This document shows positions 740-26,583 of a stretch of 60,766 bases of DNA, piece after piece. Position 1 is the first letter of the stretch. Every line of letters starts with the position of its first letter. The stretch spans positions 1-60,766 of the forward strand of contig JAFRLH010000039.1 of the NCBI GenBank assembly GCA_017431345.1, in the 5' to 3' direction. This stretch comes from Lachnospiraceae bacterium (GTDB lineage: Bacteria > Bacillota > Clostridia > Lachnospirales > Lachnospiraceae). Both the position numbers and the translations under genes were made by a program. The notes below the pieces were generated by a model. The model was given only the letters and a program-made list of their open reading frames with translations, searched no databases and was not told the origin of the DNA.

Positions 740-811
740 TTTATTTACTTCGTGATGTGATCATTTACAATGATCCCGGCCGAAAAAGATGATTCCAGAA
801 GGAGAAATGGT

Positions 812-1816: not shown

Positions 1817-1846
1817 TATTCTGTCAGGTTTCGGATCAATACTGAA

Positions 1847-3253
1847 ATGAATAAACAGGAGATCATTCGCAGGAATATTATCGCCGATCTGTCGGAAGGC
1901 GTGATGGCGATACGGTACAACGGCAGGATAGAGATCGTAAATGATGCCGCTCGGAAGATCCTGGGGATGCAGGAGGCAGAAGAACGGCTGGAAGGCCGCC
2001 CTTTTGCCTCCTTCTTCTTTTCGGATGAAAGGAACGACGCATTTACACAGACTGTGCTGGATACGATCTACGGCAGGGAAAAGAGCCAGGAGTCCTATGT
2101 TACCTATTATACAGGCGACACCGAGAAGCACCTCAGGATCGTCAGTTCCTATCTTCGGGACGAGGAGGAACTGATCGGGATCGTTCTTGTTATAAGCGAC
2201 ATATCAGAGCTTACAAGAATGCGGGACGCCATAAAGGCTATGGAAGCCATAAGGGCGCTTAATCAGAAGCTCGAATTGAGGAACCGGCTCTTAAAAGAGA
2301 CCTTCGGCCGGTATCTTTCGGACGACATTGTTCGCGAGATACTGGACACACCGGACGGTATGAAAATGGGCGGGCAGAGACGCAGGATCACGATCATGAT
2401 GAGCGATCTGCGCGGTTTTACGATGATGTGTGAACGCATGGAAGCCGCGTCTGTCGTTACCATGCTCAATCATTATTTTGCCTGTATGTATGAAGAGATC
2501 GAGAAATACGGCGGGACGATCATCGAATTCCTGGGGGACGGGATGTTCATTATTTTCGGTGCTCCGGTGGAAAAGGAGAACCATGCGAAAGACGCTGTGG
2601 CTGCGGCGATCGCCATGCAGAACCGCATGAAAGAAGTAAATGAATGGAATGCCTCCCACGGGTATGAACAGCTGTCAATGGGAATCGGTATAAACACGGA
2701 TGAAGTGATTCTCGGAAATATAGGTTCGGAACGCCGGACAAAATACGGCGTCATGGGATCAGCCGTGAACCTTGCCGGAAGGATCGAAAGTTATACCACG
2801 GACGGCCAGATCCTGATCTCGGAAGCGGTCAGGGCAGAACTGGGAGAGGATATCCGGATCAGAGGAGAGCTGAAGGTCTCTCCCAAAGGGGTGAAACATG
2901 AGATCAGTCTGTTTGACATATCCGGAATAGGAGCGCCATATCATATCCGTAAAGATGAGCATGCGGATAAAGCGGCGGAACCACTCAAAAAACCAGTAAA
3001 GATAAAATTCGCAGTCCTGGATGGAAAGCATGCGGGAAGCTTTGATCACACATGCTTCATAACAGCGTTGTCGGATGATATGGTCTGCATAAGCGGAGGA
3101 TCCGTAAACGTTTTTGATAATATTCTGATCGATGAAGCAGGCGGGATCTATGCGAAAGCTGTTCGTGCTGAAGATTGTACGGCGGAACTTGTTTTTACAG
3201 GAAAGCCGGCCGGATTCCGTCAGTGGAAAGAGGATTTGCTGAATGAAAAATAG
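1847..3253 (+). CDS. PAS-domain class III adenylate/guanylate cyclase
   Basis: The 468-residue protein starts with a PAS domain (about residues 10-125), continues with a helical linker (126-165) of the sort that joins sensor and catalytic domains, and has a class III nucleotidyl cyclase domain at about 175-360. Both metal-binding aspartates are present (D187 in MSDLRGF and D231 in FLGDGMF), with K299 (RTKYG) and the transition-state pair N308 and R312 (VNLAGR). It should make cAMP or cGMP. The residue at the second base-specifying position is Gly, so the product cannot be fixed by reading. The last 100 residues resemble a small beta-barrel, possibly PilZ-like; that is tentative. No membrane segments are seen. 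The gene lies in an operon with the double cyclic nucleotide-binding protein and overlaps the next gene by 11 bases. Confidence 0.85.
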   Translation: MNKQEIIRRNIIADLSEGVMAIRYNGRIEIVNDAARKILGMQEAEERLEGRPFASFFFSDERNDAFTQTVLDTIYGREKSQESYVTYYTGDTEKHLRIVSSYLRDEEELIGIVLVISDISELTRMRDAIKAMEAIRALNQKLELRNRLLKETFGRYLSDDIVREILDTPDGMKMGGQRRRITIMMSDLRGFTMMCERMEAASVVTMLNHYFACMYEEIEKYGGTIIEFLGDGMFIIFGAPVEKENHAKDAVAAAIAMQNRMKEVNEWNASHGYEQLSMGIGINTDEVILGNIGSERRTKYGVMGSAVNLAGRIESYTTDGQILISEAVRAELGEDIRIRGELKVSPKGVKHEISLFDISGIGAPYHIRKDEHADKAAEPLKKPVKIKFAVLDGKHAGSFDHTCFITALSDDMVCISGGSVNVFDNILIDEAGGIYAKAVRAEDCTAELVFTGKPAGFRQWKEDLLNEK

Positions 3254-4037
3254 GAACGTTTTTCTCGACACCTGCCTGTGCATGGCAGAGCATCTTCCGG
3301 AGGCAGGACGGTTTGCGGATCGGTGGGGAGAGAATCTGGGATTTGAGATCCTGCCGATGTTTGATCTGCCGGCCTATCAGGGAGCCCTGGATTCCTGCCT
3401 GCACATTTTCGAGGGACACCGGGTCTCTTTTCACGGCCCGGTCTTCTGCGCCGAACATTCCGCACCGAAAGGCAGTCCTGAATATGAGGAGACGATGCGG
3501 CATGTAAACCTGCTGCTTCCCTATATAAAACATCTGCACGGAGAGCACTTTGTCATGCATCTGAACAACTGCCGTGTGATACCGGAGAAGAAGGATGAAA
3601 TGCTGCGGAATGCCCTGGCAAGCCATGCGGAACTCTGTGAGATATTGGATCGGTACAGCTGTCCGGTTTGTGTGGAGAATACCGGCACCGCACTGCAGGA
3701 GAATATCCTGCTGGATCAGCAGGAATTCACGGATCTTTGCAGAAGCGAACATTTCAATGTGCTTGTGGATATCGGCCATGCAAATGCGAACGGCTGGGAT
3801 ATTCCGAAACTGATCCGGGATCTGAAAGGACAGATCACGGCTTATCATCTGCACAATAATGACGGTGTCCATGACCAGCATAACCGCGTGCACGACGGGA
3901 CGATCGATTATCTGAAGATATTGAAGGTGATCCGGGAGGAAACGCCTGACGCGAAAAAGATCCTTGAGTATACCAGACCGGTGCTCCTGGGAGACTGGAT
4001 CAATGAGGATATAGAGGAACTGCTGAGGGAGAGCTGA
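3243..4037 (+). CDS. TIM-barrel sugar phosphate isomerase/epimerase
   Basis: The 264-residue protein belongs to the AP endonuclease 2-like TIM-barrel family of sugar isomerases and epimerases. Visible metal-site candidates are Glu in VCVENTG, Asp/His in VDIGHANANGW, and the His cluster in AYHLHNNDGVHDQH. The C-terminal EYTRP segment also fits the family. The substrate cannot be told. The ATG lies within the end of the cyclase gene, so the two are probably translationally coupled. A terminator overlaps the stop codon and ends the operon. Confidence 0.75.
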   Translation: MKNRNVFLDTCLCMAEHLPEAGRFADRWGENLGFEILPMFDLPAYQGALDSCLHIFEGHRVSFHGPVFCAEHSAPKGSPEYEETMRHVNLLLPYIKHLHGEHFVMHLNNCRVIPEKKDEMLRNALASHAELCEILDRYSCPVCVENTGTALQENILLDQQEFTDLCRSEHFNVLVDIGHANANGWDIPKLIRDLKGQITAYHLHNNDGVHDQHNRVHDGTIDYLKILKVIREETPDAKKILEYTRPVLLGDWINEDIEELLRES

Positions 4038-4054
4038 GAGGGCTCTCCTTTTTT
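4028..4054 (+). terminator. Terminator of the cyclase operon
   Basis: GGAGAGC (4028-4034) pairs with GCTCTCC (4042-4048) and is followed by six T. The 5' arm includes the stop region of the isomerase gene. Confidence 0.75.
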
Positions 4055-4104
4055 ATATTTTTAGACTTTTTTTGTCAAAATATGATGCATGCAATGAACT
4101 TTCA

Positions 4105-4113
4105 TGGTATGAT
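4105..4113 (+). promoter_or_regulatory. Possible extended -10 promoter
   Basis: TGGTATGAT at 4105-4113 is an extended -10 element about 60 bases before the start of the secreted beta-helix gene. I see no convincing -35 box. Confidence 0.35.
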
Positions 4114-4174
4114 AAACATAAAGCAATATGTGTTTTATTGACGAGGGTTGGTGAATCATAAGGAGGAATGGGAA

Positions 4175-4984
4175 ATGCAAAAGTATTTGGGTATCTTGAG
4201 ATATCTGGCGGCACTGGTCGTTGTAGCCGGGCTGTTGGCTGCTGGCGGAGTAACAGTACAGGCAAAGGATATAAAATATGCTCATAGTATGAAATCTGGA
4301 GATAGTCTTACTCTTACTGATGATACTATAATTAATATGGATGCGGATCTTTCCGTCACGCAGATTAATGGATCTTCGTATGAACTGACGATTTTGGGCA
4401 ATAAGACACTAACCATTACACCGACAAACGGATATGGGATGTATGTGAACAGACTTAATACCAGCAATGCAAGGATAAAGATTGTTTCAGAAAATACAAG
4501 TGTTCAGGGAGGAATCAGAACTTTTGGAACGGATGCCGATGTGGATTTTAAAGATAGCCGGGTAGAGATCATCCTGAAATATGGATTTGGAATCCTGACT
4601 GCAATCAATGGAGAGTTCAATCTGACCAATTCTACTGTTACAGTAAAGACAGAGCACGATTTCGCAATCCGATCAAACGGAAAAATAACATTTGACGGTG
4701 GATCTGTTACTGCGGAAAGTGGTTCTGATACAGCACTGCGCTGTGGAAGTATATCGAAAATTACCGGAACAACTGTTTATGCTGATGGTTTCAAAGGGGG
4801 CATTTCCTCAGTTGGTGACTCCTCTATAACAGGATGCGATATAACAGCATTGGGACGAACAGAATGCGGTATTCAGGTCGGAATGACAAGTTATGATAAT
4901 TCTTTAGTAATCAGCAGCAGTAATGTTACTGCTTCCAGTGATGGTAATGCAGGGATATATGCTGAAAAAAAATTGTACCATTAA
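4175..4984 (+). CDS. Secreted beta-helix surface protein, N-terminal part of a frameshifted gene
   Basis: This is the 5' part of a gene interrupted at an A8 tract (4965-4972). The start is the ATG at 4175, eight bases after AAGGAGG (4160-4166). A signal peptide occupies about residues 1-30 (hydrophobic core LAALVVVAGLLAAGG, cleavage near VQA-KD). The rest is a repetitive Gly/Asn/Thr-rich array of short beta strands, as in right-handed parallel beta-helix proteins. It stops after AEKKLYH. Reading on in the +1 frame continues smoothly as KNCTIKDKSDINAEG, so the intact product would be a secreted protein of about 878 residues. It has seven N-X-S/T sequons in this part. The frameshift may be an assembly error, a fixed mutation or a phase-variable switch. 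No function beyond cell surface is assigned. Confidence 0.7.
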   Translation: MQKYLGILRYLAALVVVAGLLAAGGVTVQAKDIKYAHSMKSGDSLTLTDDTIINMDADLSVTQINGSSYELTILGNKTLTITPTNGYGMYVNRLNTSNARIKIVSENTSVQGGIRTFGTDADVDFKDSRVEIILKYGFGILTAINGEFNLTNSTVTVKTEHDFAIRSNGKITFDGGSVTAESGSDTALRCGSISKITGTTVYADGFKGGISSVGDSSITGCDITALGRTECGIQVGMTSYDNSLVISSSNVTASSDGNAGIYAEKKLYH

Positions 4985-6812
4985 AGATAAGTCTGATATA
5001 AACGCCGAAGGCTCAGTAGGTGGAATTGTAACTGCTGTAGGAGATATAAAACTAACAGACAGTCATATTAAGGCTGCTGCAAATGATACACATGCAGCGA
5101 TCATGGCAAAAGCTGGAACAATTACCTATAATGAAACAGACAAAAAAGATGATCTCTTTATAAAAGTACCAGATAATGGTCGTGTAAAGAAAAAATCCGG
5201 AGAGTCTGCTGTTTATGATAATGGCAAATATGCCCGGTATGTGGAGTTTGTCAAAGCAACGCTTGTCAAGGAGATTCGTTTTGAGATCCCGGTTCCATAT
5301 GATGGTGAAAAGCCTTGTGCAGATGTTAAGATTACGACGGTTCCTGCCGGAGCGATCAAGAATGACAAGTTTGTTGAATTCTTTAAGGCTAAAGAACTGA
5401 ACGGGACGCTTTATGACAACTTCTTAGTCTCTGATGATGGTAAGACTTACGAATTTCTGAAATCCAAGGATGATGTTTTTATTATAGATAAATACTATGG
5501 AACTGACATCCCGAGTCAGTGGATTGTAGAGCTGACAATTGGTGCCGGCGGTTGGAACAATGACCCTGAGGATACTTCTCAGGCTATATTCGATAGAAAC
5601 ATTGCACAGTTCTATTCTCAGAATTTAAAAGTATATGTCAATGGAATTCTGTACGAGGAAAAAACAACTGTCAAAGATAAGATGAACAATACGGTCGGCT
5701 TTTCTCTTGGCCGCTGCCTCGGCAGCATAAAGAAAGCCAAGATTGATGACATTGCAGCGCAGGAGTACACCGGCAAAGCCCTTACGCCGGAGCCCAAGGT
5801 GACCTACGGCAGCAAAACGCTTAAAAAAGGCACAGATTATACTTTGTCTTACAAGAGCAATACCGGATCGCCGACAAAGAAGACTGCTGCAACAGTTACT
5901 GTTACCGGCAAAGGTTCCTATGCATTATCAGCAAGCAAGACCTTCACGATCGAGCACACGAAGCATGTAAAGGATAAAGGAAAGACGGTAAAGGAACCTA
6001 CGGTAAAAGAAACCGGAACGAAGGAATATCACTGCACCGTCTGCGGAAAACTACTTGCGACGGAAGAGATCGCAAAGTTGCCGCCGGAAGCCGAAACCCA
6101 GCCCGAAACCCAGCCCGAAGCCGACACGCCTCAAGCTGACGCTCCGCTTTCTCCGGAGAAGGCGATCTCACTGAAGAAAGCAGAGAAAGCACTCAAAAAG
6201 GTCAAGGGCTATAAGGATCCCAAGAGCGCGAAATTCGGTCTTCTGCAGGCAAAGGCCAAGAAGATCGGGAAGAATTACGTAAAGCTCGGCTGGACAAAAG
6301 TCCAGGGTGCCGAATACTATGTCATTTACGGTAACAAATGCAGTAAGAAGAATCAGTATCTGAAGCTCACTAAGGCCAAGGCTTCAGCTAAATCCAAGAA
6401 GATCAAAAAGATCGCAGGCAAGAAGCTGAAGAAAGGAACTTACTATAAATTCATCATTGCTGCTGTCGCAAAGGATTCCAAGGGCGTTGATAAGGTGATC
6501 GCCTGCAGTAAATCCGTCCATTTCATTACAAAAGGGAATAAAAAATACGGCGATTTCACCAAGGTAAAACTGAAAACACCGAAAGAAGTAACCATCAAGG
6601 CGGGAGAGACCAGCAAGATCAAGGCAACGCAGGTCAAGCCGAAAAAGCTGAAGGTGCAGCAGCACAGAAAGCTTTCGTTCGAATCCAATAATACCGCCGT
6701 TGCCACGGTCACAAAGAAAGGTGCCGTGAAAGGCGTGTCCAAGGGAACGGCAGTCATCTATGTATATGCACAGAACGGCCTGTTCGCAACAGTCAGTGTT
6801 ACAGTCGAATAA
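4923..6812 (+). CDS. Ig-like surface protein, C-terminal part of the same frameshifted gene
   Basis: The reading frame opens at 4923 but probably continues the preceding gene from about 4973; no ribosome site precedes the internal ATG. In order it holds the end of the beta-helix, a unique region, a bacterial Ig-like segment (GKALTPEPKVTYGSKTLKKG), a Cys-containing segment around EYHCTVCGK common in clostridial surface proteins, a Glu/Thr/Pro linker, a fibronectin III-like domain (WTKVQGAEYYVIYG) and a C-terminal BIG2-like domain (SNNTAVATVTKKGAVKGVSKG). It is very lysine-rich. No LPXTG signal or transmembrane anchor is seen, so attachment may be through charge or wall binding. Six further N-X-S/T sequons lie here, thirteen over the joined protein. 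A terminator follows directly. Confidence 0.7.
   Translation: MLLLPVMVMQGYMLKKNCTIKDKSDINAEGSVGGIVTAVGDIKLTDSHIKAAANDTHAAIMAKAGTITYNETDKKDDLFIKVPDNGRVKKKSGESAVYDNGKYARYVEFVKATLVKEIRFEIPVPYDGEKPCADVKITTVPAGAIKNDKFVEFFKAKELNGTLYDNFLVSDDGKTYEFLKSKDDVFIIDKYYGTDIPSQWIVELTIGAGGWNNDPEDTSQAIFDRNIAQFYSQNLKVYVNGILYEEKTTVKDKMNNTVGFSLGRCLGSIKKAKIDDIAAQEYTGKALTPEPKVTYGSKTLKKGTDYTLSYKSNTGSPTKKTAATVTVTGKGSYALSASKTFTIEHTKHVKDKGKTVKEPTVKETGTKEYHCTVCGKLLATEEIAKLPPEAETQPETQPEADTPQADAPLSPEKAISLKKAEKALKKVKGYKDPKSAKFGLLQAKAKKIGKNYVKLGWTKVQGAEYYVIYGNKCSKKNQYLKLTKAKASAKSKKIKKIAGKKLKKGTYYKFIIAAVAKDSKGVDKVIACSKSVHFITKGNKKYGDFTKVKLKTPKEVTIKAGETSKIKATQVKPKKLKVQQHRKLSFESNNTAVATVTKKGAVKGVSKGTAVIYVYAQNGLFATVSVTVE
4965..4972 (+). 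repeat. A8 homopolymer at the frameshift
   Basis: Eight consecutive A separate two reading frames that together make one protein. Loss of one A would restore a single 878-codon frame; so would gain of two A. Slippage during transcription at this tract could also yield some full-length product. Confidence 0.85.
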
Positions 6813-6821
6813 CAGAATTAT

Positions 6822-6857
6822 GGAGAGAAAAGGGGATGTCCTCTTTTCTCTCTTTTT
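6822..6857 (+). terminator. Terminator after the surface protein gene
   Basis: The arms GAGAGAAAAGGGGA and TCCTCTTTTCTCTC (starting at 6823) form a 14-pair stem followed by six T. Confidence 0.85.
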
Positions 6858-6902
6858 TATTGCAGTGGACAGGATCTGTCTCCGTCTCCGCGATTAAATA
6901 GC

Positions 6903-6932
6903 TTGCACAGGCAGCGGCACTTATGCTATATT
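6903..6932 (+). promoter_or_regulatory. Probable promoter of the secreted protein-STT3 operon
   Basis: TTGCAC at 6903-6908 and TATATT at 6927-6932 are spaced 18 bases apart, with TGC just before the -10 box (extended -10). The start codon is at 6986. It would drive the secreted protein and, with only 21 bases to the next gene, the STT3 homologue. Confidence 0.55.
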
Positions 6933-6985
6933 TTATATGTATAGATATGTTTGTTTACTGATCCTCTTTCAGAAAGGAGGCAGAT

Positions 6986-8146
6986 ATGAAAAAACGTTCC
7001 ATAGCTTTTATTACTGCAATATGCGTTTGCGCAGTTCTTTCCTGCATGGGGCAGATGCCGGTGCATGCGGATGATATTCCCGGGATCCTGCCCTATAAAA
7101 CGGGTGTCAACAATGCAACTTATTTGGATGTTCCGGGAACCGTAACTCCCGGAACAGAGGGAACAAATACCGATCCTGAAATATCCCAGGGAGATAATGG
7201 CGGCAGCGGTAATGTTAATGGTGCCGTGGTTAATCCTGTTATCTTCAGCAACATTACAGAAGTCGTTGTGATTGGAGACAATACTAATACTACGGGAGGC
7301 GGTTCCGCGGCAGCCGATGGCGGGAATTCGGGAGATAACTCCCAGACTTCCGAGGCCGGAAATTCGGGAAGCAATTCTCAGGCAAACGAAGCCGAGAATA
7401 CGGCCAAAGAAAAGGAACGTGCAATCTACAACAGCAATTTTTCGAGTATCGAAAATGGTTTTAACATTCACAACAATACCGCGATAATTGATATTAAAAC
7501 GGATAACAGAACGGATACCAAAACGGATACCAGAACGGATATCATAACGGATAACAATATCACAGGCATAAGACCGGTCGTCAAAAAAAACAGGCCGGAT
7601 CCTGCAGCTGTCAACTTAAGCGGAGCAGCCGTTTCCTTTACAAAGATCAAGGGAAAGATGACTTATACCGGGAAGAAACTCCGTCCAGCGGTAAAGGTCG
7701 TGCTGAAGGGTAAGACACTTGTAAAGGACACGGACTACACGGTCAAATACAAAAATAATATCAAAGCAGGAACAGCTTCTGTCATCATTTCCGGCAAAGG
7801 CGGTTACATCGGTTCTGCAAAGAAAAATTTCAAGATCCTTAAGGCGAAGAATACCATCAAGCTGAAGTCAAAGAAAAAGACGCTGAAATACAGTAAAGTA
7901 AAAAAGAAGAGTGTATCCTTTGCCATCAAAGCATCTGTAAAGGGAAAAGCAAAGAAGAAGTTTAAGAAGATCCGCATCCCCAAAGCGGTGAAGGAGTATA
8001 TTAAAGTATCATCCCGGGGGAAGGTCACGGTTAAGCAGGGAATTCCAAAAGGAACCTGGAAGATCAAGGTAAAAGTAACAGCCTCTGCCGTTAAGAACTA
8101 TAAGAAGACCGCTGTGAAAAAAACATATAAGATCATTGTGAAGTAA
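6986..8146 (+). CDS. Secreted Asn/Ser/Thr-rich protein with lysine-rich Ig-like C-terminus
   Basis: The 386-residue protein has a signal peptide (residues 1 to about 29, ending PVHA-DD) and an excellent ribosome site (GAAAGGAGG before 6986). Residues 30-200 are low-complexity, rich in Gly, Asn, Ser, Thr and Asp, and include a repeat of Thr-Asp units encoded by 12-base repeats. Residues 210-386 form one or two Ig-like domains (YTGKKLRPAVKVVLKGKTLV) with very high lysine content. I count eight N-X-S/T sequons (NAT, NIT, NTT, NFS, NNT, NRT, NIT, NLS) between residues 42 and 215; one of them (DNNIT) also fits the stricter D/E-X-N-X-S/T form. The STT3 oligosaccharyltransferase gene begins 21 bases after its stop with no terminator between, making it a candidate glycosylation substrate. 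Its function is unknown. Confidence 0.8.
   Translation: MKKRSIAFITAICVCAVLSCMGQMPVHADDIPGILPYKTGVNNATYLDVPGTVTPGTEGTNTDPEISQGDNGGSGNVNGAVVNPVIFSNITEVVVIGDNTNTTGGGSAAADGGNSGDNSQTSEAGNSGSNSQANEAENTAKEKERAIYNSNFSSIENGFNIHNNTAIIDIKTDNRTDTKTDTRTDIITDNNITGIRPVVKKNRPDPAAVNLSGAAVSFTKIKGKMTYTGKKLRPAVKVVLKGKTLVKDTDYTVKYKNNIKAGTASVIISGKGGYIGSAKKNFKILKAKNTIKLKSKKKTLKYSKVKKKSVSFAIKASVKGKAKKKFKKIRIPKAVKEYIKVSSRGKVTVKQGIPKGTWKIKVKVTASAVKNYKKTAVKKTYKIIVK
7498..7555 (+). repeat. 12-base tandem repeat, about five units
   Basis: The unit AACGGATACCAR occurs at 7498, 7510, 7522, 7534 and 7546 (last copy partial) with small changes at the 3' end. It encodes four-residue Thr-Asp-X-X units. Being a multiple of three, changes in copy number keep the frame. 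Confidence 0.9.
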
Positions 8147-8167
8147 CAACGGGAAAACAGCTGTGTT

Positions 8168-10300
8168 ATGAAATCAGAGAATAGATCACGGATCCTCAAT
8201 TTCATATGTATCATGAACGTTATGGCAGCCGCAGTATTCGTGCGGCTGCCTTCTGCATATCTGCACAGTACTTCGCCCGAAAACAGGGAAGCCTGGTGCA
8301 GGGAGGACGGTATACCGTACCTTGCGGAACCGGATTCCTATTATCATGTGAGAATAACGGAGAATTATCTGAAGACAGGACACATAGAGGATGCAGTGAC
8401 AGAAGACGGAAACGCCTGGGATACACAAAGCTTTTATCCGGAAGGACGGACTGCGGATTATCCGCCTGGGATCGTCGTGCTTACAGCAGCGGTTTACAGG
8501 ATCCTACATCCGCTTTGCGGTGCAGATCTGTACAGGATCGAATTTTGTCTGGCCGCATGCATGAGCGCGGTTACGGCGGCAGCTGCTTTTGCCGCTGCCG
8601 GACGGTTCAGCGGCAAAGCAGGCGGTTTTGTAGCCGGCATTGCGGTATCCTGTGCGTCCGGATTCGCAGCCCGCACTTCATTCGGCAGATTTGACACGGA
8701 TATGTTCGTTGTTCTGATGGATGTTCTCCTGATCCTGTTCATGGCGGAAGCGCTGCGGGAAAGAGAATTCATAAAACAGCTGGTCTATTCTGCCTGCTAT
8801 GGTTTCTCTGCACTTCTGTATACGGTCTGCTGGACGCCTCGTTATGCCATGCTGTATGTCTGTCTTGTACTGGCAGGAGGCGCTGTGTTCACAGCATCGC
8901 TGCTGTTCGCAGGGGGGACACAGAGGCGGCTCACGCAAAGAATCCTGCGGGTGATCAAAGGCACTGAGCTGCGGGGCATTGTGCTGTCGGCGGTTATATC
9001 CGCAGTACTCATTCTATGGAGATTCGGAACCGGCTTTATCGGTTCGATCATTTACGCTGCACGGTATACAACGTTTGTAACAGCGCAGGGGGAATTGCCG
9101 AATGTCCTTGTATCCGTATCGGAACTGGAAGTCCCGTCGCCCGTTCCGGAAAAACTCATTCAGTGGTTTTCGGGTTATGTTCCGGGACAGAAATTGAGCA
9201 TGATCAACGGTGTCGGCGGTGTGGCAGTTTTTGTACTGGCAGCGGCAGCATTGATCATGCTGGCTTACGGCTTCATCAGGAAACCTGCTGAAGGTATGTC
9301 TGTCTATCTGGACCGCAGGAGCTGTTCTTTATATTTCTGTATTCTGTTCCTGCTTTTTGCCGGAAGTGTCTATGCCTGCGGACGCGGCATGCGCTTTATA
9401 GAGCATCTGTCGGTTCCGGTCGGGCTGCTTGCGGGGGCGCTGATCGGATGGTTCTGCGCCGGTATCATAAAGGAAGGTACCGGCAGTGCAGTTGGAAGAG
9501 CTGTGCCGGTCGTCATTCTCTGTATAGCCGCCGGCATTCCGGTCATTACCGGATCCCGTGCCTGTTCTGCCGATGTCCGGCCTTGCGTCAGCGATGCATA
9601 TGCTATGGCAATGCAGTGGATCAGAGAGAACGCGGATGACCCGGAAAGCGTGATCGCATCGTGGTGGGACCAGGGATATTTTTTTGAGAGCGAATCCGGA
9701 CACCCGTGTTTCTGGGACGGCGGAACAACGGAATCAATACGCGCAATACTGATTGCCAAAGCGCTTACTGCAGACAGCAGGGAACTTTCCGAACGGATCC
9801 TGCATATGCTTTCCGCTTACGGAAACAGACCTGTGGAACTGCTCAGGGAATACACGGATACCCGGACGGCATTTGACGCGATCTGGGAAACGCTCCTTAT
9901 GGACAGGCAGGGAGCAGAGGATTATCTGATAAAAAACTGCGCAATGCCGGCGGACAAGGCCTGTGAAGCGGCGTGCATGCTGCATCCGGAAGCACAGACC
10001 GAATCCTGGCTTGTCGTGACAGAAAGGATGATGCAGCTGATCGGATGGATCGAATATTTTTCCGACTGGGATTTTACCGGGAACATGCCGCGTCCTGCCG
10101 CTACGGTATACAAATATACGCCGGACGGGAAATCTGTCTATGATACGGAAGAAGGCAGAGAATATTTAGAAAAAAGAAATAAGGAGACGCTCTGGAAGCT
10201 GTTCTTTGACAAAGACGGCGGGAGCAGCTTCAGGTTGGTATTTGAGAAAGAGGACGGCATAGATCATGTCATGGTATGGCGTGTGGGAGAAGGAGATTAA
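8168..10300 (+). CDS. STT3-type oligosaccharyltransferase
   Basis: This 710-residue polytopic membrane protein has the hallmarks of the STT3/AglB/PglB family, which moves a lipid-linked glycan to Asn in N-X-S/T at the outer membrane face. D56 sits in the first external loop (EPDSYYHVR). The second acidic motif is FDTD at 175-178 in SFGRFDTDMF. The external-loop-5 motif SVSE is at 316-319 with its Glu at 319. The acceptor-binding motif reads WWDQG at 499-503 (usually WWDYG) and is followed by a DK/MI-like helix (TESIRAILIAKAL). The first two-thirds is membrane segments, the last third a soluble domain. The loop motifs look archaeal or eukaryotic rather than Campylobacter-like. It follows a sequon-rich secreted protein by 21 bases, and a glycosyltransferase starts four bases after its stop. 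The ribosome site is weak, consistent with coupling. The family call is firm; activity, glycan and targets are inferred. Confidence 0.9.
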   Translation: MKSENRSRILNFICIMNVMAAAVFVRLPSAYLHSTSPENREAWCREDGIPYLAEPDSYYHVRITENYLKTGHIEDAVTEDGNAWDTQSFYPEGRTADYPPGIVVLTAAVYRILHPLCGADLYRIEFCLAACMSAVTAAAAFAAAGRFSGKAGGFVAGIAVSCASGFAARTSFGRFDTDMFVVLMDVLLILFMAEALREREFIKQLVYSACYGFSALLYTVCWTPRYAMLYVCLVLAGGAVFTASLLFAGGTQRRLTQRILRVIKGTELRGIVLSAVISAVLILWRFGTGFIGSIIYAARYTTFVTAQGELPNVLVSVSELEVPSPVPEKLIQWFSGYVPGQKLSMINGVGGVAVFVLAAAALIMLAYGFIRKPAEGMSVYLDRRSCSLYFCILFLLFAGSVYACGRGMRFIEHLSVPVGLLAGALIGWFCAGIIKEGTGSAVGRAVPVVILCIAAGIPVITGSRACSADVRPCVSDAYAMAMQWIRENADDPESVIASWWDQGYFFESESGHPCFWDGGTTESIRAILIAKALTADSRELSERILHMLSAYGNRPVELLREYTDTRTAFDAIWETLLMDRQGAEDYLIKNCAMPADKACEAACMLHPEAQTESWLVVTERMMQLIGWIEYFSDWDFTGNMPRPAATVYKYTPDGKSVYDTEEGREYLEKRNKETLWKLFFDKDGGSSFRLVFEKEDGIDHVMVWRVGEGD

Positions 10301-10304
10301 GAAC

Positions 10305-11270
10305 GTGGATCCTAAGAAAGTGTCAGCGCTGATCGTTACACATAACAGAAAGAATGCGCTTCTGAGATGTCTGAAGGCTGTTCTCGGACAGACGTTTCAA
10401 GTGGATTCAGTCATTCTCGTGGACAATGCTTCTGCAGACGGGACGCTGGAACTGCTTCAGAAGGAAGGAATCGTCAACGGAACGGTATTTCCGGCTGATA
10501 CGCTCGTGCCTGCGGGAACTGCGGAGGGAACGAAGATCTGTGTTCTCCGGAAGGAAAGCAACACCGGAGGTTCCGGCGGATTCTTTGCCGGCATGAAGGC
10601 AGTGGATGAAAATCTGGAGTATGATTATTTTTGGCTGATGGATGACGATGGCTATCCGGACAAAAACTGCCTGAAAAAACTGGTGCGCATTGTCGATACG
10701 TACGGCTATGTCATGCCGGTGTCCTTTGATATAAACGATCCGGGAAAGCTGTCCTGCCCGATCCGGAAAAAGAACGGCAGAAAGACGACGGATTTCAGAG
10801 CGCTGTACGCCGACTACGGCGAGATTCTGCACTTTGTAACGCCCTTCAACGGCGTGCTGCTTACGAAGGAATGTGTAAGAAAAACAGGCTATATAGATCC
10901 GAAATACTTCCTTTGGGGAGATGAATATGACCACTGCTACCGCTGCAGGAAACAGGGGTTTGAGCCGGTAACTTATCTGCGGGCCAGGTTTTTCCATCCG
11001 GCGGACGGCCTTATGCACGTACCGATCCTGTTTGGGCTGATCAAGGTCCCTTATACGGAATCAAAGCTGCGGATGGTCTGCCTCGCAAGGAATTACACAT
11101 ACATTTATCTGCATTATGGACAGCAGTACAGAATTCCGCTGAAACTGATGCTTTACGCGTGGCTGTTCCTTGTAAAAAGAAGAGGGGACATCGGGGGATT
11201 CCTCCTGTATCTTGCCTCTGTGGCGGACGGATTCCGCGGGGATTTTACACGGCATCTTCAATATCTCTGA
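10305..11270 (+). CDS. Glycosyltransferase family 2 (GlfT/rhamnosyltransferase-like)
   Basis: The 321-residue product is a GT-A fold glycosyltransferase. SALIVTHNRK and VILVDNASADGT form the nucleotide-binding start, WLMDDDGYPDK carries the DDD metal site, and the ...GDEYDHCYR segment is the usual catalytic/acceptor region of galactofuranosyl and rhamnosyl transferases. I take GTG 10305 as start: AAGGAG at 10290-10295 is nine bases upstream and the preceding STT3 stop is at 10298-10300. An ATG at 10266 would overlap STT3. It probably transfers a sugar onto a growing glycan, possibly the one used by STT3; that link is from position only. Its 3' end overlaps the opposite-strand glycosyltransferase by 26 bases. 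Confidence 0.85.
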   Translation: MDPKKVSALIVTHNRKNALLRCLKAVLGQTFQVDSVILVDNASADGTLELLQKEGIVNGTVFPADTLVPAGTAEGTKICVLRKESNTGGSGGFFAGMKAVDENLEYDYFWLMDDDGYPDKNCLKKLVRIVDTYGYVMPVSFDINDPGKLSCPIRKKNGRKTTDFRALYADYGEILHFVTPFNGVLLTKECVRKTGYIDPKYFLWGDEYDHCYRCRKQGFEPVTYLRARFFHPADGLMHVPILFGLIKVPYTESKLRMVCLARNYTYIYLHYGQQYRIPLKLMLYAWLFLVKRRGDIGGFLLYLASVADGFRGDFTRHLQYL

Positions 11271-12078
11271 TCCGGCCGGGAAGGGCGCTGCGCACTCGGC
11301 AGGCAAATGTCTTAAGATAATAATGTCTGTGTTTTATGACGCCTGACAGTGCCCAGCGTATCAGATTGACTGCTGCTTCGGGAGGGGATTCCTGCAGGTA
11401 TTTTCTGTAGAATCTGTACTGCGGTCCTATGATTCTGGTCTTGTCTGTGGAAGCACGGCTGCCGGTCAGACGGTGCTTTGCGAGTACCCGCTGATTGCCG
11501 CATGCACTGCCTTCCAGCGAGACAGCCTGAAACCAGAAGGCGTAATCGTCTCGGAGGCTGCCGAGTTCTTCGGGAAGATAGAGCGTGCCGTATTTTGAAC
11601 AATCATAAAGCCCCGTAAGGCAGCCTATATGATTCTGAACTTTCATATCCCGTACAGTAATGTGTTTTTTGACACGCACTGTTCCGGGCAGGAGATGGGA
11701 GTCTCCGTCTATATGTTTATAAGAAGCGGCAGCACAAATGCTGCCTGTTTTTTTCAGCAATGAGATCTGGGAAGCCAGAAAGTCCGGAAGCCAGAGGTCG
11801 TCTGCATCCAGCAGTGCTATATACTGGCCCTGCGCATGACGGATGCCCGTGTTGCGGGCAGAGGCGGACCCGGCGTTATCTTGCCTGAAGTAACGGATCC
11901 TGCTGTCGAGTGATAAAAAACCGCGCACTATCTCTGCTGATCCATCTGCAGAGCCGTCGTCAACAATGATCATTTCCCAGAATGGATATGTCTGGGAAAG
12001 GACTGACTCGATGGTTTCTGCAATATAACGCTCGTCGTTATAGCAGGGCGTGATGATCGATACAAGACCTTTTTTCAT
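11245..12078 (-). CDS. Glycosyltransferase family 2
   Basis: This is a 277-residue GT-A enzyme. VSIITPCYND starts the fold, MIIVDDGSADGS and IALLDADDLW give the nucleotide and DxD metal motifs, and LRDDYAFWFQA near residue 180 resembles the catalytic ED motif region. It resembles TuaG-like transferases that modify surface polysaccharides. The start is the ATG at 12078, with GGAG nine bases upstream. A longer frame from 12123 is unlikely because the -10 box lies only about nine bases before it. It is transcribed towards the STT3-linked glycosyltransferase and overlaps its end. The sugar donor cannot be told. Confidence 0.85.
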   Translation of the reverse strand: MKKGLVSIITPCYNDERYIAETIESVLSQTYPFWEMIIVDDGSADGSAEIVRGFLSLDSRIRYFRQDNAGSASARNTGIRHAQGQYIALLDADDLWLPDFLASQISLLKKTGSICAAASYKHIDGDSHLLPGTVRVKKHITVRDMKVQNHIGCLTGLYDCSKYGTLYLPEELGSLRDDYAFWFQAVSLEGSACGNQRVLAKHRLTGSRASTDKTRIIGPQYRFYRKYLQESPPEAAVNLIRWALSGVIKHRHYYLKTFACRVRSALPGRIRDIEDAV

Positions 12079-12131
12079 TTCTGATTTCTCCGGTAAGGCA
12101 GGCATGCCGAAATTTGTTTGCATTTGACAGT

Positions 12132-12160
12132 ATTATACCATATTGGTGAAACCGGCACAA
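12132..12160 (-). promoter_or_regulatory. Probable promoter of the reverse-strand glycosyltransferase
   Basis: On the minus strand TATAAT (12137-12132) lies 17 bases after TTGTGC (12160-12155). This places the RNA start after the ATG at 12123, supporting the start at 12078. Confidence 0.55.
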
Positions 12161-12222
12161 TCGGGCAGGGGTCTGCCGCGTCCGGCATCTGTCACCAATT
12201 TCCCCTTTTATTGTCCCGAAAA

Positions 12223-12251
12223 TTGTGATATTATTAACTGTACCTTATACA
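12223..12251 (+). promoter_or_regulatory. Probable promoter of degV-serC
   Basis: TTGTGA at 12223-12228 and TATACA at 12246-12251 have a 17-base spacer. The DegV start codon is 45 bases downstream. Confidence 0.5.
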
Positions 12252-12296
12252 CATACCGGTTTTTGTATAACAAAACGATATGGAGAGTGGGATATC

Positions 12297-13139
12297 ATGA
12301 GTTACAAGATCGTAGTAGACAGCTGCTGTGACCTGACGCCGGAAAAAAAGAAGGATCCGCATTTTCAGATCGTTTCCCTGACGCTGGAAGTCGGCGGCGT
12401 GAGTTATATAGACGACGAGACGTTCGACCAGGCAGTGTATCTGAAAGCAGTTGCTGCATCAAAGGAATGCGCGCATACTGCATGTCCTTCGCCGGAGAGC
12501 TACAAAAGAGCCTATGAAGGGCCGGAGGAAATGGTCTTTGTCGTAACACTTTCCCAGCATCTTTCGGGGAGCTACAACAGCGCGTTGGTCGGCAAGAGCC
12601 TGTTCGAGGAGGAGAATCCCGCGAGCACGAAACGCATTCATGTTTTCAGTTCGGATTCAGCCTGCTGCGGGGAGTCGCTGGTCGCTTTTAAGATCCAGGA
12701 GCTGTGTGAAGCAGGATGTACTTTTGAAGATATTGTTGCAGGCACGCAGGATTTTCTGTATAATATGAAAACATATTTTGTGCTGGAGGACATGGAGCCG
12801 CTGCGCAAGAACGGCAGACTGACCGGGCTTGCAGCCCTTGTGGTCTCCGCACTGAATATCCGGCCGATCATGGCCGGCGACCATGGCGTGATCGTCCGTG
12901 TCGGGCAGAAGAGAGGGATCGCCAGGGCATTGAAAGCAATGGTCGATCACGCCCTTTCCGATGATCCGAAAACAGAGGACAAAATCCTTGCCGTTACCCA
13001 TGTCAACTGCCGTGAAAGAGCGGAATGGGTGATCAGTCTGATCACCGCAAAAGCAAAATTCAGGGAAGTGTATCTGGTGGATGCTGCCGGCGTGGCGACC
13101 ACTTATGCAGGGGACGGCGGAATCGTTTTAACATTTTAA
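12297..13139 (+). CDS. DegV family fatty acid-binding protein
   Basis: The 280-residue protein matches the DegV (FakB-like) family, whose members bind a fatty acid and, in the best-studied cases, present it to the FakA kinase for acyl phosphate formation. It opens with the typical KIVVDSCCDLTPE segment, has THLSGSY-like VTLSQHLSGSYNSA in the middle, and RKNGRLTGLAALV plus NIRPIM, all family landmarks. The start ATG at 12297 follows a GGAGAG site. Whether it works in fatty acid uptake here is inferred. serC follows 20 bases downstream with no terminator, so the two are likely co-transcribed. Confidence 0.88.
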   Translation: MSYKIVVDSCCDLTPEKKKDPHFQIVSLTLEVGGVSYIDDETFDQAVYLKAVAASKECAHTACPSPESYKRAYEGPEEMVFVVTLSQHLSGSYNSALVGKSLFEEENPASTKRIHVFSSDSACCGESLVAFKIQELCEAGCTFEDIVAGTQDFLYNMKTYFVLEDMEPLRKNGRLTGLAALVVSALNIRPIMAGDHGVIVRVGQKRGIARALKAMVDHALSDDPKTEDKILAVTHVNCRERAEWVISLITAKAKFREVYLVDAAGVATTYAGDGGIVLTF

Positions 13140-13159: not shown

Positions 13160-14239
13160 ATGAGCAGAGTGTACAATTTTTCAGCAGGTCCGGCCATGCT
13201 TCCGGAAGAGGTGCTTAAGACTGCAGCGGCAGAGATGCTTGATTATCATGGCAGCGGGCAGTCTGTCATGGAAATGAGCCATCGTTCCGCAGTATTTGAA
13301 GGCATCATCACACAGGCGGAGGCTGATATCAGGGAACTGCTTTCCGTACCGGATAATTACAAGGTGCTTTTCATGCAGGGCGGCGGGAACCAGCAGTTTG
13401 CGGCTGTACCGCTTAATCTGATGCGGAACGGCGTTGCCGATTATATCCTTACCGGACAGTGGGCCAAGAAGGCGGCAAAAGAAGCCGAAAAATACGGAAA
13501 AGTCAACATCATCGCGTCAAGCGCTGACAAGACATTCTCCTATATTCCGGACTGCTCTGATCTGCCGGTCGATCCGATGGCGGATTATGTATACATCTGT
13601 GAGAACAATACGATCTACGGAACAAAATATCATCAGCTTCCCGACACCAAAGGGAAGACCCTGGTAGCGGACGTATCCTCCTGCTTCCTTTCGGAGAAGC
13701 ACGATGTGGAAAAGTACGGCATCCTCTGGGGCGGCGTCCAGAAGAACGTCGGTCCTGCAGGCTGCGCCATCGTGATCATCAGGGATGACCTGTTAAGGGA
13801 AGACATCAATCCCATGACGCCTGTCATGATGAATTACAAGGTGACTGCCGACAACAGATCACTCTACAATACGCCTCCCTGCTACACCATCTATATCTGC
13901 GGCCTGGTCTTCCAGTGGCTGAAGAAGATGGGCGGCCTGGATGAGATGAAACGCAGGAACGAGGAAAAGGCAGCCCTGCTTTACAACTATCTTGACAGCA
14001 GTGCCATGTTCTCCTCTACCGTAGAGCCCGGTTCCCGTTCTCTTATGAACGTTCCGTTCGTGACCGGAAACAAGGATCTGGATGCAGAGTTCATCAAGAA
14101 AGCGACAGAATCAGGATTTGTCAATCTGAAAGGCCATCGTACCGTCGGCGGTATGAGAGCCAGCATCTATAACGCCATGCCCATGGAGGGCGTGAAGGCG
14201 CTCGTGGAATTCATGAAGGATTTCGAGGCGGCGCACTGA
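13160..14239 (+). CDS. serC: Phosphoserine aminotransferase
   Basis: SerC converts 3-phosphohydroxypyruvate and glutamate to phosphoserine in serine synthesis, and can act in vitamin B6 synthesis. The 359 residues fit the family length. It begins with the diagnostic YNFSAGPAMLPEEV, has the PLP phosphate region QGGGNQQF, and the Schiff-base lysine in GGVQKNVGPAG. The end carries the MRASIYNAMP signature. The ATG at 13160 follows AGGGGG. No serA or serB lies nearby. A GC-rich hairpin follows the stop. Confidence 0.95.
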   Translation: MSRVYNFSAGPAMLPEEVLKTAAAEMLDYHGSGQSVMEMSHRSAVFEGIITQAEADIRELLSVPDNYKVLFMQGGGNQQFAAVPLNLMRNGVADYILTGQWAKKAAKEAEKYGKVNIIASSADKTFSYIPDCSDLPVDPMADYVYICENNTIYGTKYHQLPDTKGKTLVADVSSCFLSEKHDVEKYGILWGGVQKNVGPAGCAIVIIRDDLLREDINPMTPVMMNYKVTADNRSLYNTPPCYTIYICGLVFQWLKKMGGLDEMKRRNEEKAALLYNYLDSSAMFSSTVEPGSRSLMNVPFVTGNKDLDAEFIKKATESGFVNLKGHRTVGGMRASIYNAMPMEGVKALVEFMKDFEAAH

Positions 14240-14264
14240 TTAAACCGTAATGAAGCAGATCATT

Positions 14265-14300
14265 CCCGCGGGGCGCATCGCGTTTCCGCGGGTTCGTTCT
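14265..14300 (+). terminator. Possible terminator after serC
   Basis: CCCGCGG (14265-14271) pairs with CCGCGGG (14286-14292), followed by a weak T-containing tail. It could end the degV-serC message just before uvrC. Confidence 0.5.
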
Positions 14301-14316
14301 AAATGGGAGATCACGG

Positions 14317-16215
14317 TTGGAATTTGACTGGGAAAAAGAACTGAAAGAGCTGCCGGACAAGCCGGGCGTGTATCTGATGCATGATGCCATGGATCATATT
14401 ATTTACGTGGGCAAAGCGATCGTTCTGAAGAACAGGGTCAGGCAGTATTTCCGGAAAAGTACGAAAAAATCTCCCAAGATCGAAAGAATGGTCTCCCAGG
14501 TGGCGTGGTTCGAGACCATCGTGGTGGATTCGGAAGCGGAAGCGCTCGTACTGGAATGCAACCTGATCAAAGAGCACCGTCCGAAGTACAACACGATGCT
14601 GAAGGATGACAAAGGTTATCCGTATATCCGGGTCACCGTCGGCGAAGCATTTCCGAGGATCATGCTGGCGAGACGGATCCGGAAAGACGATTCGAAATAT
14701 TACGGACCGTATACGAATGTCACGGCGGTAAGAGATACGATCAGCCTGACCCACAAGCTGTTTCGCATCAGGGACTGCGCAAGAAAACTGCCGGAGGATA
14801 TCGGGAAAGAACGTCCGTGCCTGAATTATCATATTCATCAGTGCGACGCCCCCTGCCAGGGGAAGATCACCCCGGAAGAATACCGGAAGCATATAAAGAA
14901 AGCACAGGATTTCCTGGACGGGAAATATGACGGGCTTCTCGCTGAGATCGAACAGAAGATGCAGCAGGCATCGGAACGGATGGATTTCGAAGCGGCGATC
15001 GCGCTGCGGGAGCAGTATTATTCGGTGCAGAGACTGTCCGAGCGGCAGAAGCTTTCTGATGTGAACGGGGAGAACCGGGATCTGGTCGGCATTGCCGTCG
15101 AGGGCGAAGATGCGATCGTACAGATCTTCTTTATCCGGCAGGGGAAGCTGATCGGAAGGGATCATTTTCATGTCAGAGTTGCCGAGGGAGACGACAACAG
15201 GGAGATCCTGTCCGGGTTTGTGAAACAGTTCTATTCCGGCACCCCTTTTATGCCGTCAGAGATTTTCCTTCCGGCAGAGATCGAGGATGAAGACCTGATC
15301 AGCGGCTGGCTGTCCGCAAAAGCCGGACACAAGGTGACGATCAGGGTGCCGAAGATCGGAGAAAAGCACCGTCTGATGGAACTTGCGGAACAGAATGCAA
15401 AGATCACACTGGACCGTGACCGTGAAAAGATCAGGCGTGAGGAAGCCCGTACGAAAGGCGCCGTGAAGGAGCTCGCGGATCTGATCGGACTGACAGACGT
15501 TGTCAGGATGGAGGCGTACGATATCTCCAATATTTCGGGATTTGCCTCGGTCGCATCCATGGTCGTCTATGAGAACGGCAAACCGAAGCGGAACGACTAC
15601 CGCAAATTTCGGATAAAGACCGTCGTCGGAGCGAACGATTATGCTTCCTTAAAGGAAGTGCTGATCAGACGTTTTGCCCACGGACTGGAAGAGACCAGGA
15701 CCCTGGAAGAAAAGGGAATGCCGGCAGAATACGGAAAATTTGCCAATTTTCCGGATCTGATCCTGATGGACGGCGGAAGAGGACAGGTGAACATCGCCCT
15801 GGAAGCGCTGGAAGAAGTGGGCGTGGACATTCCCGTGTGCGGGATGGTAAAAGATGACAATCACAGAACGAGGGGATTGTTCTATAATAATATTGAAGTA
15901 CCGATGGATACATCCGGAGAAGCGTTCAAACTGATCACCAGGATCCAGGATGAAGCCCACCGGTTCGCGATCACTTTCCACAGAGATCTGCGAAGCAAAG
16001 AGCAGGTGCATTCGATCCTTGACGATATTCCGGGCGTCGGCCCGAAGCGCAGGAAAGCGCTCATGCGGACGTTCGGCGGGATCGACGCGCTGAAGGCAGC
16101 AGGCGTGGAGGAACTTCTCGCGATTCCGGAGTTCAATAAAAATGCAGCAATTTCCGTTTATGCGTTTTTCCATGACGGAGAGATACCGGATCTTCCGGAT
16201 GATAATGAAGTATAA
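14317..16215 (+). CDS. uvrC: Excinuclease ABC subunit C
   Basis: UvrC makes the two incisions in nucleotide excision repair after UvrA and UvrB find damage. The 632-residue protein has an N-terminal GIY-YIG nuclease (GVYLMHD...IIYVGKA, residues 14-33), a UVR UvrB-binding motif near 205-235, the RNase H-like second nuclease domain ([21 protein letters not shown]) and a C-terminal helix-hairpin-helix ([13 protein letters not shown]). Start is TTG 14317, six bases after GGGAGA; no better ATG exists. hprK follows 17 bases on, consistent with one operon through whiA and perhaps dnaE. Confidence 0.96.
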
Positions 16216-16232
16216 ACAAGGAGGAGTAGGTC

Positions 16233-17165
16233 TTGGAAAGCATCACTTTAGCGCAGATCGTACGGGATCTGAATTTTAAGTGCCTGAACCCGGATGTGGA
16301 TCTGGAATCCGTTTCCATCAGCCATCCTGACATCAACAGGCCGGCGCTGCAGCTGGCAGGCTTTTTTGAACATTTTGACAACCACAGGATCCAGATCATC
16401 GGAAATGTTGAGATGGCATATATGCGCACGCTTTCTTCGGAAAAGCGCACTGCCGTTATGGAGGAACTTTTTAAACGGGGAATTCCCTGCCTGATCTACT
16501 GCAGAGAGCATGAACCTTCGGAGGAAGTGCTGATCCTGTCCGGAAAATACAAGGTGCCGCTGCTGTCCTCCAGACATTTTACTTCGGATGTCTATGCAAG
16601 CATCCTCCGGTATCTGCAGGAGAAACTCGGCCCGGTGCAGACCATTCACGGCGTACTGGTCGATGTAGCCGGTGTGGGCGTGCTGATCGCCGGTGAGAGC
16701 GGCATTGGTAAGAGTGAGGTCGCGCTGGAGCTGATCAAGAGGGGCCACAGACTGGTCGCGGACGATGCTGTCGAACTGCACCGCATCAATGATGCCAGGA
16801 TCGTCGGAAGGGCGCCGGCAGTAACGGAGAACCTGATCGAACTCCGCGGCGTCGGCATTATCGATGTGAAGGCGCTGTTCGGCGCGCAGAGCATTAAGAT
16901 GGAGCAGGACGTCGACATGGTCATCAAACTGGAAGACTGGGATAAGGAGAAGGTATACGACCGCCTCGGATCCCAGGAGGATTATGTCAAATATCTCGGC
17001 AATAAGATCACCTGTTACAAGATCCCCGTGCGTCCCGGCCGGAATGTCGCCATCATTGTGGAAGCAGCAGCGCTGAATTTCCGGCAGAAGAGCATGGGCT
17101 ATGACGCAGTGGAAGAGCTCTATAAGAGAGTACAGAACAATATGATCAGATCCATGGACAGATAG
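16233..17165 (+). CDS. hprK: HPr kinase/phosphorylase
   Basis: HprK phosphorylates and dephosphorylates Ser46 of HPr, setting carbon catabolite repression through CcpA in Firmicutes. The 310-residue protein has the N-terminal domain, a Walker A loop GESGIGKSE at about residue 153, the LVADDAVEL motif, and the C-terminal family signature region around ELRGVGIIDVKALFG. The start is TTG 16233, after a strong AAGGAGGA. Its presence implies a cre/CcpA system; one cre-like site is seen near 40761. HPr is not encoded here. Confidence 0.95.
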   Translation: MESITLAQIVRDLNFKCLNPDVDLESVSISHPDINRPALQLAGFFEHFDNHRIQIIGNVEMAYMRTLSSEKRTAVMEELFKRGIPCLIYCREHEPSEEVLILSGKYKVPLLSSRHFTSDVYASILRYLQEKLGPVQTIHGVLVDVAGVGVLIAGESGIGKSEVALELIKRGHRLVADDAVELHRINDARIVGRAPAVTENLIELRGVGIIDVKALFGAQSIKMEQDVDMVIKLEDWDKEKVYDRLGSQEDYVKYLGNKITCYKIPVRPGRNVAIIVEAAALNFRQKSMGYDAVEELYKRVQNNMIRSMDR

Positions 17166-17168
17166 AAT

Positions 17169-18104: not shown

Positions 18105-18116
18105 GGAGTGATGAAA

Positions 18117-19058: not shown

Positions 19059-19080
19059 ACAGGAAAACAAGGAGAAAACA

Positions 19081-22566: not shown

Positions 22567-22637
22567 CCAATCATATGAGAATCACAGCGTTTACGTAATT
22601 AATAATACGACAAATTATTCCTCAGGGGGTTCTGAAT

Positions 22638-23618: not shown

Positions 23619-23651
23619 TCAGACACTGCATTGAAAGGAGGTGATGAGCCC

Positions 23652-25940: not shown

Positions 25941-25950
25941 GGAGAAAAAC

Positions 25951-26583
25951 ATGGCAGAACTTGAGATACAATACCGCGTGCTTGGCGCCATCGGAACAAA
26001 TGTATACTTCCTGATCAACAAGGAAACGATGGAAACGATCCTTGTGGATCCGGCGGACAATGCGCCGTATATCGAAGAACAGTTCAGGCTGCGAGGCTTC
26101 AAACCGGCCGCGATCCTGCTGACGCACGGACATTTTGATCATATTTATGCGGTTAACGATCTGAAAGCAGCCTGGCCGGATGTAAAAGTATACGCCTATA
26201 TTGATGAGAAACCGCTGCTTGCGGATTCCTGGGCAAACAGATCCGCCGCCTGGGCATCGCCTTATACCACGACAGCGGATGTATGGGTAAAGGATAACGA
26301 GATGCTTCATATCGCGGGATTTGATATCCAGGTATTCCATACGCCCGGGCACACAGCGGGAAGCTGCTGCTATTATCTCGAGGAGCAGGGCGTGCTGATC
26401 TCGGGAGATACGCTTTTCCTGGAATCCTACGGCAGGACAGACCTGCAGACGGGAAGCGAGGCGGCTATTTTCCGCTCTGTTGCCAGACTGCTGAAACTGC
26501 CGGAGGATGTCTATGTATATCCCGGCCATATGGACATGACAAGCATCGGACATGAGCGAGAATACAATCCGGCTGCATTCTGA
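25951..26583 (+). CDS. Metallo-beta-lactamase fold hydrolase (glyoxalase II-like)
   Basis: The 210-residue protein has the metal motif HGHFDH (in LLTHGHFDHIYAV), the later His in HTPGHTAGS, Asp in ISGDTLF and the final His in YPGHM, which together form the two-metal site. It resembles the small YcbL/glyoxalase II-like hydrolases that act on thioesters or similar substrates; the real substrate is unknown. It starts ten bases after rel with GGAGAAAA before the ATG, so it shares that operon. A strong terminator follows. Confidence 0.88.
   Translation: MAELEIQYRVLGAIGTNVYFLINKETMETILVDPADNAPYIEEQFRLRGFKPAAILLTHGHFDHIYAVNDLKAAWPDVKVYAYIDEKPLLADSWANRSAAWASPYTTTADVWVKDNEMLHIAGFDIQVFHTPGHTAGSCCYYLEEQGVLISGDTLFLESYGRTDLQTGSEAAIFRSVARLLKLPEDVYVYPGHMDMTSIGHEREYNPAAF

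Follow-up and report, generated by a model that had tools for sequence, protein, structure and literature searches.

Does a Gram-positive bacterium of the family Lachnospiraceae possess a true STT3-type oligosaccharyltransferase, and which proteins would such an enzyme modify? The question is raised by an ORF at 8168-10300 of the window, by which we mean the whole stretch of DNA analysed (60,766 nucleotides, contig JAFRLH010000039.1). According to the accessible parts of earlier studies, the bacteria that carry out en bloc N-glycosylation are delta- and epsilon-proteobacteria (PMC5796085); the surveyed bacterial enzymes come from epsilon- and deltaproteobacteria and one aquificae, some of them accepting a minimal N-x-T (PMC4894442); and bacterial STT3 sit within euryarchaeal sequences, having been transferred at least twice (PMC4973528). 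Our literature search, with most subscription journals and preprints outside its reach, turned up no paper describing glycosylation by STT3 in Clostridia.

STT3 ORF and its conserved residues

The ORF and the codons of its landmark residues are as follows.

8168-10300, forward strand: STT3-type oligosaccharyltransferase, 710 aa plus stop, identified by two Pfam models, homologues and conserved residues
8333-8335, forward strand: codon of D56 (EPDSYY), acid of the first external loop; invariant, aligned with STT3A EFDPY
8693-8701, forward strand: codons of D176-T177-D178 (DxD; context F175-D176-T177-D178); invariant, aligned with C. lari PglB GYYDTD
9122-9124, forward strand: codon of E319 in S316-V-S-E319; E invariant, assigned by motif and position
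9662-9676, forward strand: codons of W499-W500-D501-Q-G503 (WWDQG); WWD and G503 invariant, aligned with PglB/STT3A WWDYGY
10028-10051, forward strand: possible MI-type motif M621-x-x-L624-x-x-x-I628, tentative; weak 0.8-bit alignment with the PglB MLRIMPVV region

A preliminary description of this DNA had placed an STT3 enzyme here and had named D56, FDTD at 175-178, SVSE at 316-319 and WWDQG at 499-503, all of which are present as it stated. It had also proposed a search against PF02516 (STT3). In Pfam, this model gave 146.3 bits against a cut-off of 24.5 (E 2.5e-42), and PF21436 (STT3-PglB_core) gave 35.6 bits against a cut-off of 23 (E 1.6e-8), so that both curated cut-offs are exceeded and the identification is confirmed. 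The ORF is the only STT3 match of its genome, and its reading frame is free of stops. Of nine further homologues scanned, all exceed the PF02516 cut-off and eight that of PF21436. The best NCBIfam match by score was TIGR04154 (archaeo_STT3), at 47.8 bits below its cut-off of 450, and NF050801, the PglB equivalog, reached 31.7 below its cut-off of 1300. On the STT3 homologue of locus L015, TIGR04154 gave 93 bits. A profile of seven Lachnospiraceae STT3 searched against the PDB matched human STT3A best (93.1 bits), followed by C. lari PglB (85.1) and archaeal AglB (47.5).

Across the STT3 family, D56, the DxD and E319-type acids and WWD are the catalytic residues, and WWD serves sequon binding. 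In an alignment of the query with six Lachnospiraceae homologues from other genomes, at 22-48% identity, D56, D176, D178, E319, W499, W500 and D501 were all invariant, as was G503. HMM alignment placed the DxD of the window enzyme on the DxD of both PglB and STT3A. The PglB alignment begins downstream of D56, whose counterpart is therefore given by STT3A only. In the loop of E319 the HMM alignment with PglB is unreliable, so this residue, which we take by its motif to be the equivalent of PglB E319, was assigned by motif and position only. WWDQG at W499-G503 is presumably the sequon-recognition motif, and M621-x-x-L624-x-x-x-I628 could be of the MI type (the DK/MI motif contacts the +2 Ser/Thr). 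The AlphaFold model of the enzyme, built from only two sequences (the window protein and that of locus L012), had a pLDDT of 34.4 and was discarded. A scan of viral contigs for further relatives gave 28 stretches that fitted a pattern, none of which coded for one. Judged from its sequence, the ORF at 8168-10300 codes for a genuine oligosaccharyltransferase of the STT3 type.

Distribution and selection

In its own genus, STT3 was found in 2 of 11 genomes, the window genome included. The family sample gave matches in 10 of 299 genomes; seven of these were over the cut-off and six were strong (E below 1e-24). The seventh (G291; 35.8 bits, 560-aa frame) had no blastp match to the query and was taken as another GT-C protein. 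A profile search of the order sample matched 2 of 295 genomes, both Lachnospiraceae. Of the 391 genomes in the class sample 13 had a match, six over the cut-off, and none except the window genome scored above 33.2 bits; the other five over the cut-off were likewise taken as other GT-C proteins. Within individual genera, counting the genome first found in each, STT3 occurred in 2/41, 2/6, 3/4, 15/22 (g190) and 8/8 (g253) genomes. STT3 is thus sporadic across Lachnospiraceae yet common or universal in some genera.

Comparison with the homologue in L012 gave dN 0.118, dS 0.655 and a dN/dS of about 0.18 (475 codons, residues 236-710), and the window STT3 is under purifying selection.

Genes around STT3 in the window

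We defined a sequon as N-x-S/T, derived expected counts from shuffles, and used the reversed motif as a control. The following genes surround STT3.

4148-4984, forward strand: ORF for a secreted product with 7 sequons; probable 5' portion of one gene broken in two at an A8 tract
4923-6812, forward strand: probable 3' part of the split gene, with a Big_2 domain; 6 sequons, 5 without the first 20 residues
6986-8146, forward strand: candidate acceptor, a secreted 386-aa protein with an N/S/T-rich linker (8 sequons) and a lysine-rich C-terminal domain; homologue in locus L013 at 7591-8568
10266-11270, forward strand: GT2 glycosyltransferase, GlfT1-like (PF00535 5.6e-21; sub-threshold NF050113 2.4e-37); with conserved homologues in both L012 and L013
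11245-12123, reverse strand: second GT2 glycosyltransferase, TuaG-like (PF00535 2.6e-40; NF047683 1.7e-50 but below cut-off); homologue beside the L013 cassette

A gap of 21 nt separates the candidate acceptor gene from the STT3 start, and the first GT2 gene overlaps the STT3 3' end by 35 nt. No Pfam model matches the lysine-rich C-terminal domain of the candidate acceptor. The overlapping ORFs within 4148-6812 look like one gene for a secreted beta-helix/Ig-like protein, with the break at the A8 tract at 4965-4972 due to phase variation, gene decay or a fault of the assembly.

Pfam found no flippase, no phosphoglycosyltransferase and no DUF2304 in the nine ORFs scanned around STT3 (770-13139, from a list of ORFs of at least 100 aa). 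The PF02397 matches of this genome, enzymes of the initiating kind, sit on other contigs (C13, C49 and C76). Elsewhere in the same genome (L032, 12611-16622), a PF02397 sugar-phosphate transferase gene and a GT2 gene adjoin one for an exported YkuD (L,D-transpeptidase)/fn3 protein. At 770-3253 of the window, a gene for a protein with two cNMP-binding stretches precedes one for a PAS/adenylate-guanylate cyclase; the two may form a cyclic-nucleotide signalling pair.

The cassette in related genomes

The candidate acceptor, STT3 and the two GT2 enzymes have homologues that again stand together in locus L013, from another genome of the same genus (G008), with identities of 39% (over 305 aa), 46%, 55% and 57%, respectively. 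Below 20 kb of the window, 4923-6812 is the only further called gene with a match in L013, through a domain common with the L013 candidate acceptor (45% over 76 aa). The cassette is therefore common to the two genomes and the flanks are not, so that it lies in a different context in the second genome of the genus. L013 also carries a GT4 gene (PF00534) and one for a 467-aa membrane protein that resembles a Wzx flippase by eye; no Pfam or NCBIfam model matches this protein, which is a probable flippase.

In L012, the STT3, GT2, DegV, serC, uvrC and hprK genes stand in the same order as in the window. Identity was 79-86% for STT3 (residues 236-710) and the two GT2 enzymes (window 8873-12078 against L012 1-3206), and 96-99% for DegV, SerC, UvrC and HprK. 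The dS values of the cassette (0.61-0.75) and the flanks (0.18-0.80) are comparable except for serC, and the dN values are 0.078-0.118 and 0.003-0.022, respectively. The cassette is under purifying selection, with its protein sequence changing faster than its surroundings.

Polysacc_synt (PF01943) and GT2 genes adjoin STT3 in L014, L015 and L144. At 7409-12245 of L015, a GT2 gene, a DUF2304 gene (both by Pfam) and the PF01943 gene lie beside STT3 in a layout resembling wall-polymer glycosylation systems. A similar resemblance is seen in L157 (7508-8582), with DUF2304 by Pfam and GT2 by eye; both loci belong to genera other than that of the window.

Sequons in proteins encoded beside STT3

The candidate acceptor in L013 has 14 sequons where about 5 are expected, and two reversed motifs. 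All 14 are N-x-T and eight have the form D/E-x-N-x-S/T; seven fall inside a 30-bp tandem array. Two secreted proteins of L015 (genome G062), encoded on the opposite strand beside the STT3 gene group, carry 41 sequons against 14.3 expected and 43 against 12.8 (the latter protein being incomplete at the end of the stretch), with 12 and 6 reversed motifs, respectively. Among 258 sampled G062 genes these two come second and first, respectively. Tandem Repeats Finder detected short arrays only, and without the beta-helix and array parts the counts are still 27 against 10.3 and 27 against 8.5, with 9 and 4 reversed. For a related protein in L144 (G954), which the end of the contig truncates, the count is 30 where 10.8 are expected, and outside the helix 22 against 7.6 with 11 reversed.

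Homology links the L144 protein to those of L015. Because of this, and because half of the L013 sequons lie in the tandem array, the three cases are not independent. When the two L015 proteins are compared, Asn is retained at 28 of the 39 sequon Asn positions that can be aligned, and at 17 of 44 other Asn positions. Between L144 and the first of them the numbers are 23 of 32 against 24 of 42, and between L144 and the second, 17 of 32 against 19 of 31. Preferential conservation of sequon Asn among these proteins is thus not consistent.

With a minimum length of 150 aa, 4 of 37 exported STT3 neighbours exceeded z 4, as compared with 0 of 93 exported proteins of the sampled background (Fisher P 0.006). 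The four belong to three loci, representing two genera, and are not independent. No neighbour at z>4 was found in 25 of the 28 STT3 loci examined, the window included; this set contains several short contigs and loci cut by contig ends, and STT3 itself was uncalled in four. The 18 loci of g190 (12) and g253 (6) all lack such a neighbour, though STT3 is common there, which indicates that linked acceptors are not general.

Sequons in the window genome and in controls

In the window, the candidate acceptor alone, with 8 sequons against 5.2 expected, is not significant (reached by 243 of 2000 shuffles). The three upstream ORFs together have a modest excess, with 20 against 11.7 (P 0.006, 4000 shuffles) and 9 reversed. 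The sampled exported proteins of the genome (639,348 bases, about a fifth of it) show no sequon excess, with a sequon to reversed ratio of 83:78 (1.06); the remaining 39 proteins give 75:75, which compared with the three window ORFs yields a Fisher P of 0.07. The STT3-less sister G003 gave 54:49 (1.10; 286,672 bases), and G062, its STT3 locus included, a ratio of 1.48 with an interval of 0.85-2.29 (348,949 bases). A genome-wide excess as a sign of N-glycosylation is therefore unsupported in the window genome. Gene calls, start choice and the signal-peptide rule came from simple custom scripts, which started the window STT3 late (8222) and missed genes in this genome (coding fraction 0.67).

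The preliminary description had suggested N-glycosylation of secreted proteins as a possibility in this organism. It had overlooked the candidate acceptors upstream of STT3 and the joint movement of these genes as a cassette. The retained WWD, the purifying selection and the sequon-loaded secreted proteins adjoining STT3 in relatives lend the suggestion indirect support; the exported proteins sampled from the window genome itself, at 83:78, lend it none.

In three genomes without STT3 over the cut-off, beta-helix proteins have 13-15 sequons where 6.0-7.1 are expected (z 3.9, 3.0 and 2.9), one of these genomes (G204) having a weak sub-threshold PF02516 match. Part of the sequon signal thus belongs to that fold. 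A membrane protein of the STT3-less G003, outside the exported background set, reached z 4.5 (7 against 1.7). Two giant proteins were rejected as sequon-enriched: a 5255-aa exported beta-helix protein of the window genome (L194/L195, contig C65, about 13222-28989), with 61 against 56.9, and one of G262, with 87 against 50.8 but 83 reversed, hence simply N/S/T-rich.

Function of the locus

On the evidence of these genes, the locus is probably a compact protein N-glycosylation cassette with linked preferred acceptors, its donor glycan and activity being predicted. GT2 and GT4 enzymes would assemble a glycan on undecaprenyl pyrophosphate as its lipid carrier, a flippase of the Wzx type would turn it outward, and STT3 would move it onto the Asn of N-x-S/T sites in exported proteins. 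The preferred acceptors would be the surface proteins encoded beside STT3, whose sequon-bearing parts would become glycan-coated.

We hold a bolder proposal tentatively, at somewhat short of an even chance. Some Lachnospiraceae would possess a self-contained N-glycoprotein module in which STT3 is inherited with a dedicated acceptor, a surface protein of mucin-like or S-layer-like character, densely N-glycosylated and loaded with N-x-T in a linker or along its whole length. Gram-positive bacteria would thereby gain their first en bloc N-linked system, one with enzyme and substrate co-encoded.

It is also conceivable, though unlikely, that the GT-C enzyme has left protein glycosylation and decorates cell-wall polysaccharide with sugars from undecaprenyl phosphate made by a GT2 enzyme paired with a small membrane protein. 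DUF2304 and GT2 genes do adjoin STT3 in L015 and L157, L015 has its PF01943 gene, and 25 of the 28 loci lack a strongly sequon-rich neighbour. The accessible part of PMC8035078 describes systems of GT-A, membrane protein, Wzx and GT-C that modify wall polymers. Such a role fits poorly with the sequon-loaded secreted proteins that adjoin STT3 in two genera and with the nine window ORFs, in which DUF2304 had no match. It also sits badly with the invariant WWD and acidic set, given the role of WWD in sequon binding.

Somewhat less likely again is a true but general N-oligosaccharyltransferase acting on many exported proteins, beside which sequon-rich neighbours stand by coincidence, Asn/Thr-rich repeats and beta-helices being common in Lachnospiraceae surface proteins. 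The sequon counts of beta-helix proteins in the three genomes without STT3 over the cut-off would agree with this, as would the frequency of STT3 in g190 and g253 without such neighbours at 18 loci. However, the excess in L015 and L144 remains outside helix and array parts, no background exported protein reached z 4, and the sampled exported proteins of the window genome show no excess.

That the gene is non-functional or was acquired recently, or that it reached this genome through a binning error in the metagenome assembly, is very improbable: the genome comprises 94 contigs with 5.14% estimated contamination and the distribution of STT3 is patchy, but the gene shares its contig with genes resembling serC, uvrC, hprK, murB, whiA and dnaE (names by eye), has a stop-free frame with the low dN/dS given above, and recurs in the same gene order in the separately recorded L012, which largely refutes this reading.

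Comparison with known systems

If the locus is an N-glycosylation cassette, Campylobacter PglB/pgl is one natural comparison. PglB too has about 710 aa, DxD and WWD, and glycosyltransferase genes alongside, and its sequon D/E-x-N-x-S/T, as given in the accessible part of PMC9561416, is matched by sites in the L013 candidate acceptor. Unlike pgl, the locus belongs to a Gram-positive host, a secreted candidate acceptor adjoins the enzyme, no pgl-type cluster is present among the window ORFs scanned, and the equivalog score lies far under the PglB cut-off (31.7 against 1300). Archaeal AglB gives the top NCBIfam match by score (TIGR04154), but the window STT3 lies far under that cut-off of 450 and in a bacterial gene context. 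Eukaryotic STT3A/STT3B share the WWDxG motif, and STT3A is the highest PDB profile match; the window enzyme, however, is bacterial. The multi-component transmembrane systems of Gram-positive bacteria (GacI/GacL, CsbB/YfhO), as far as PMC8035078 is accessible, have a layout of GT2, small membrane protein, Wzx and GT-C that resembles L015. Their GT-C enzymes act on wall polymers according to the same part of that source, whereas the window GT-C is an STT3 with WWD.

If the N-glycosylation reading is true, an intact STT3 with sequon-loaded secreted proteins would extend en bloc N-glycosylation to Gram-positive bacteria. The candidate glycoproteins would be directly testable by mass spectrometry, and an oligosaccharyltransferase so distant from PglB would be of use in glycoengineering.
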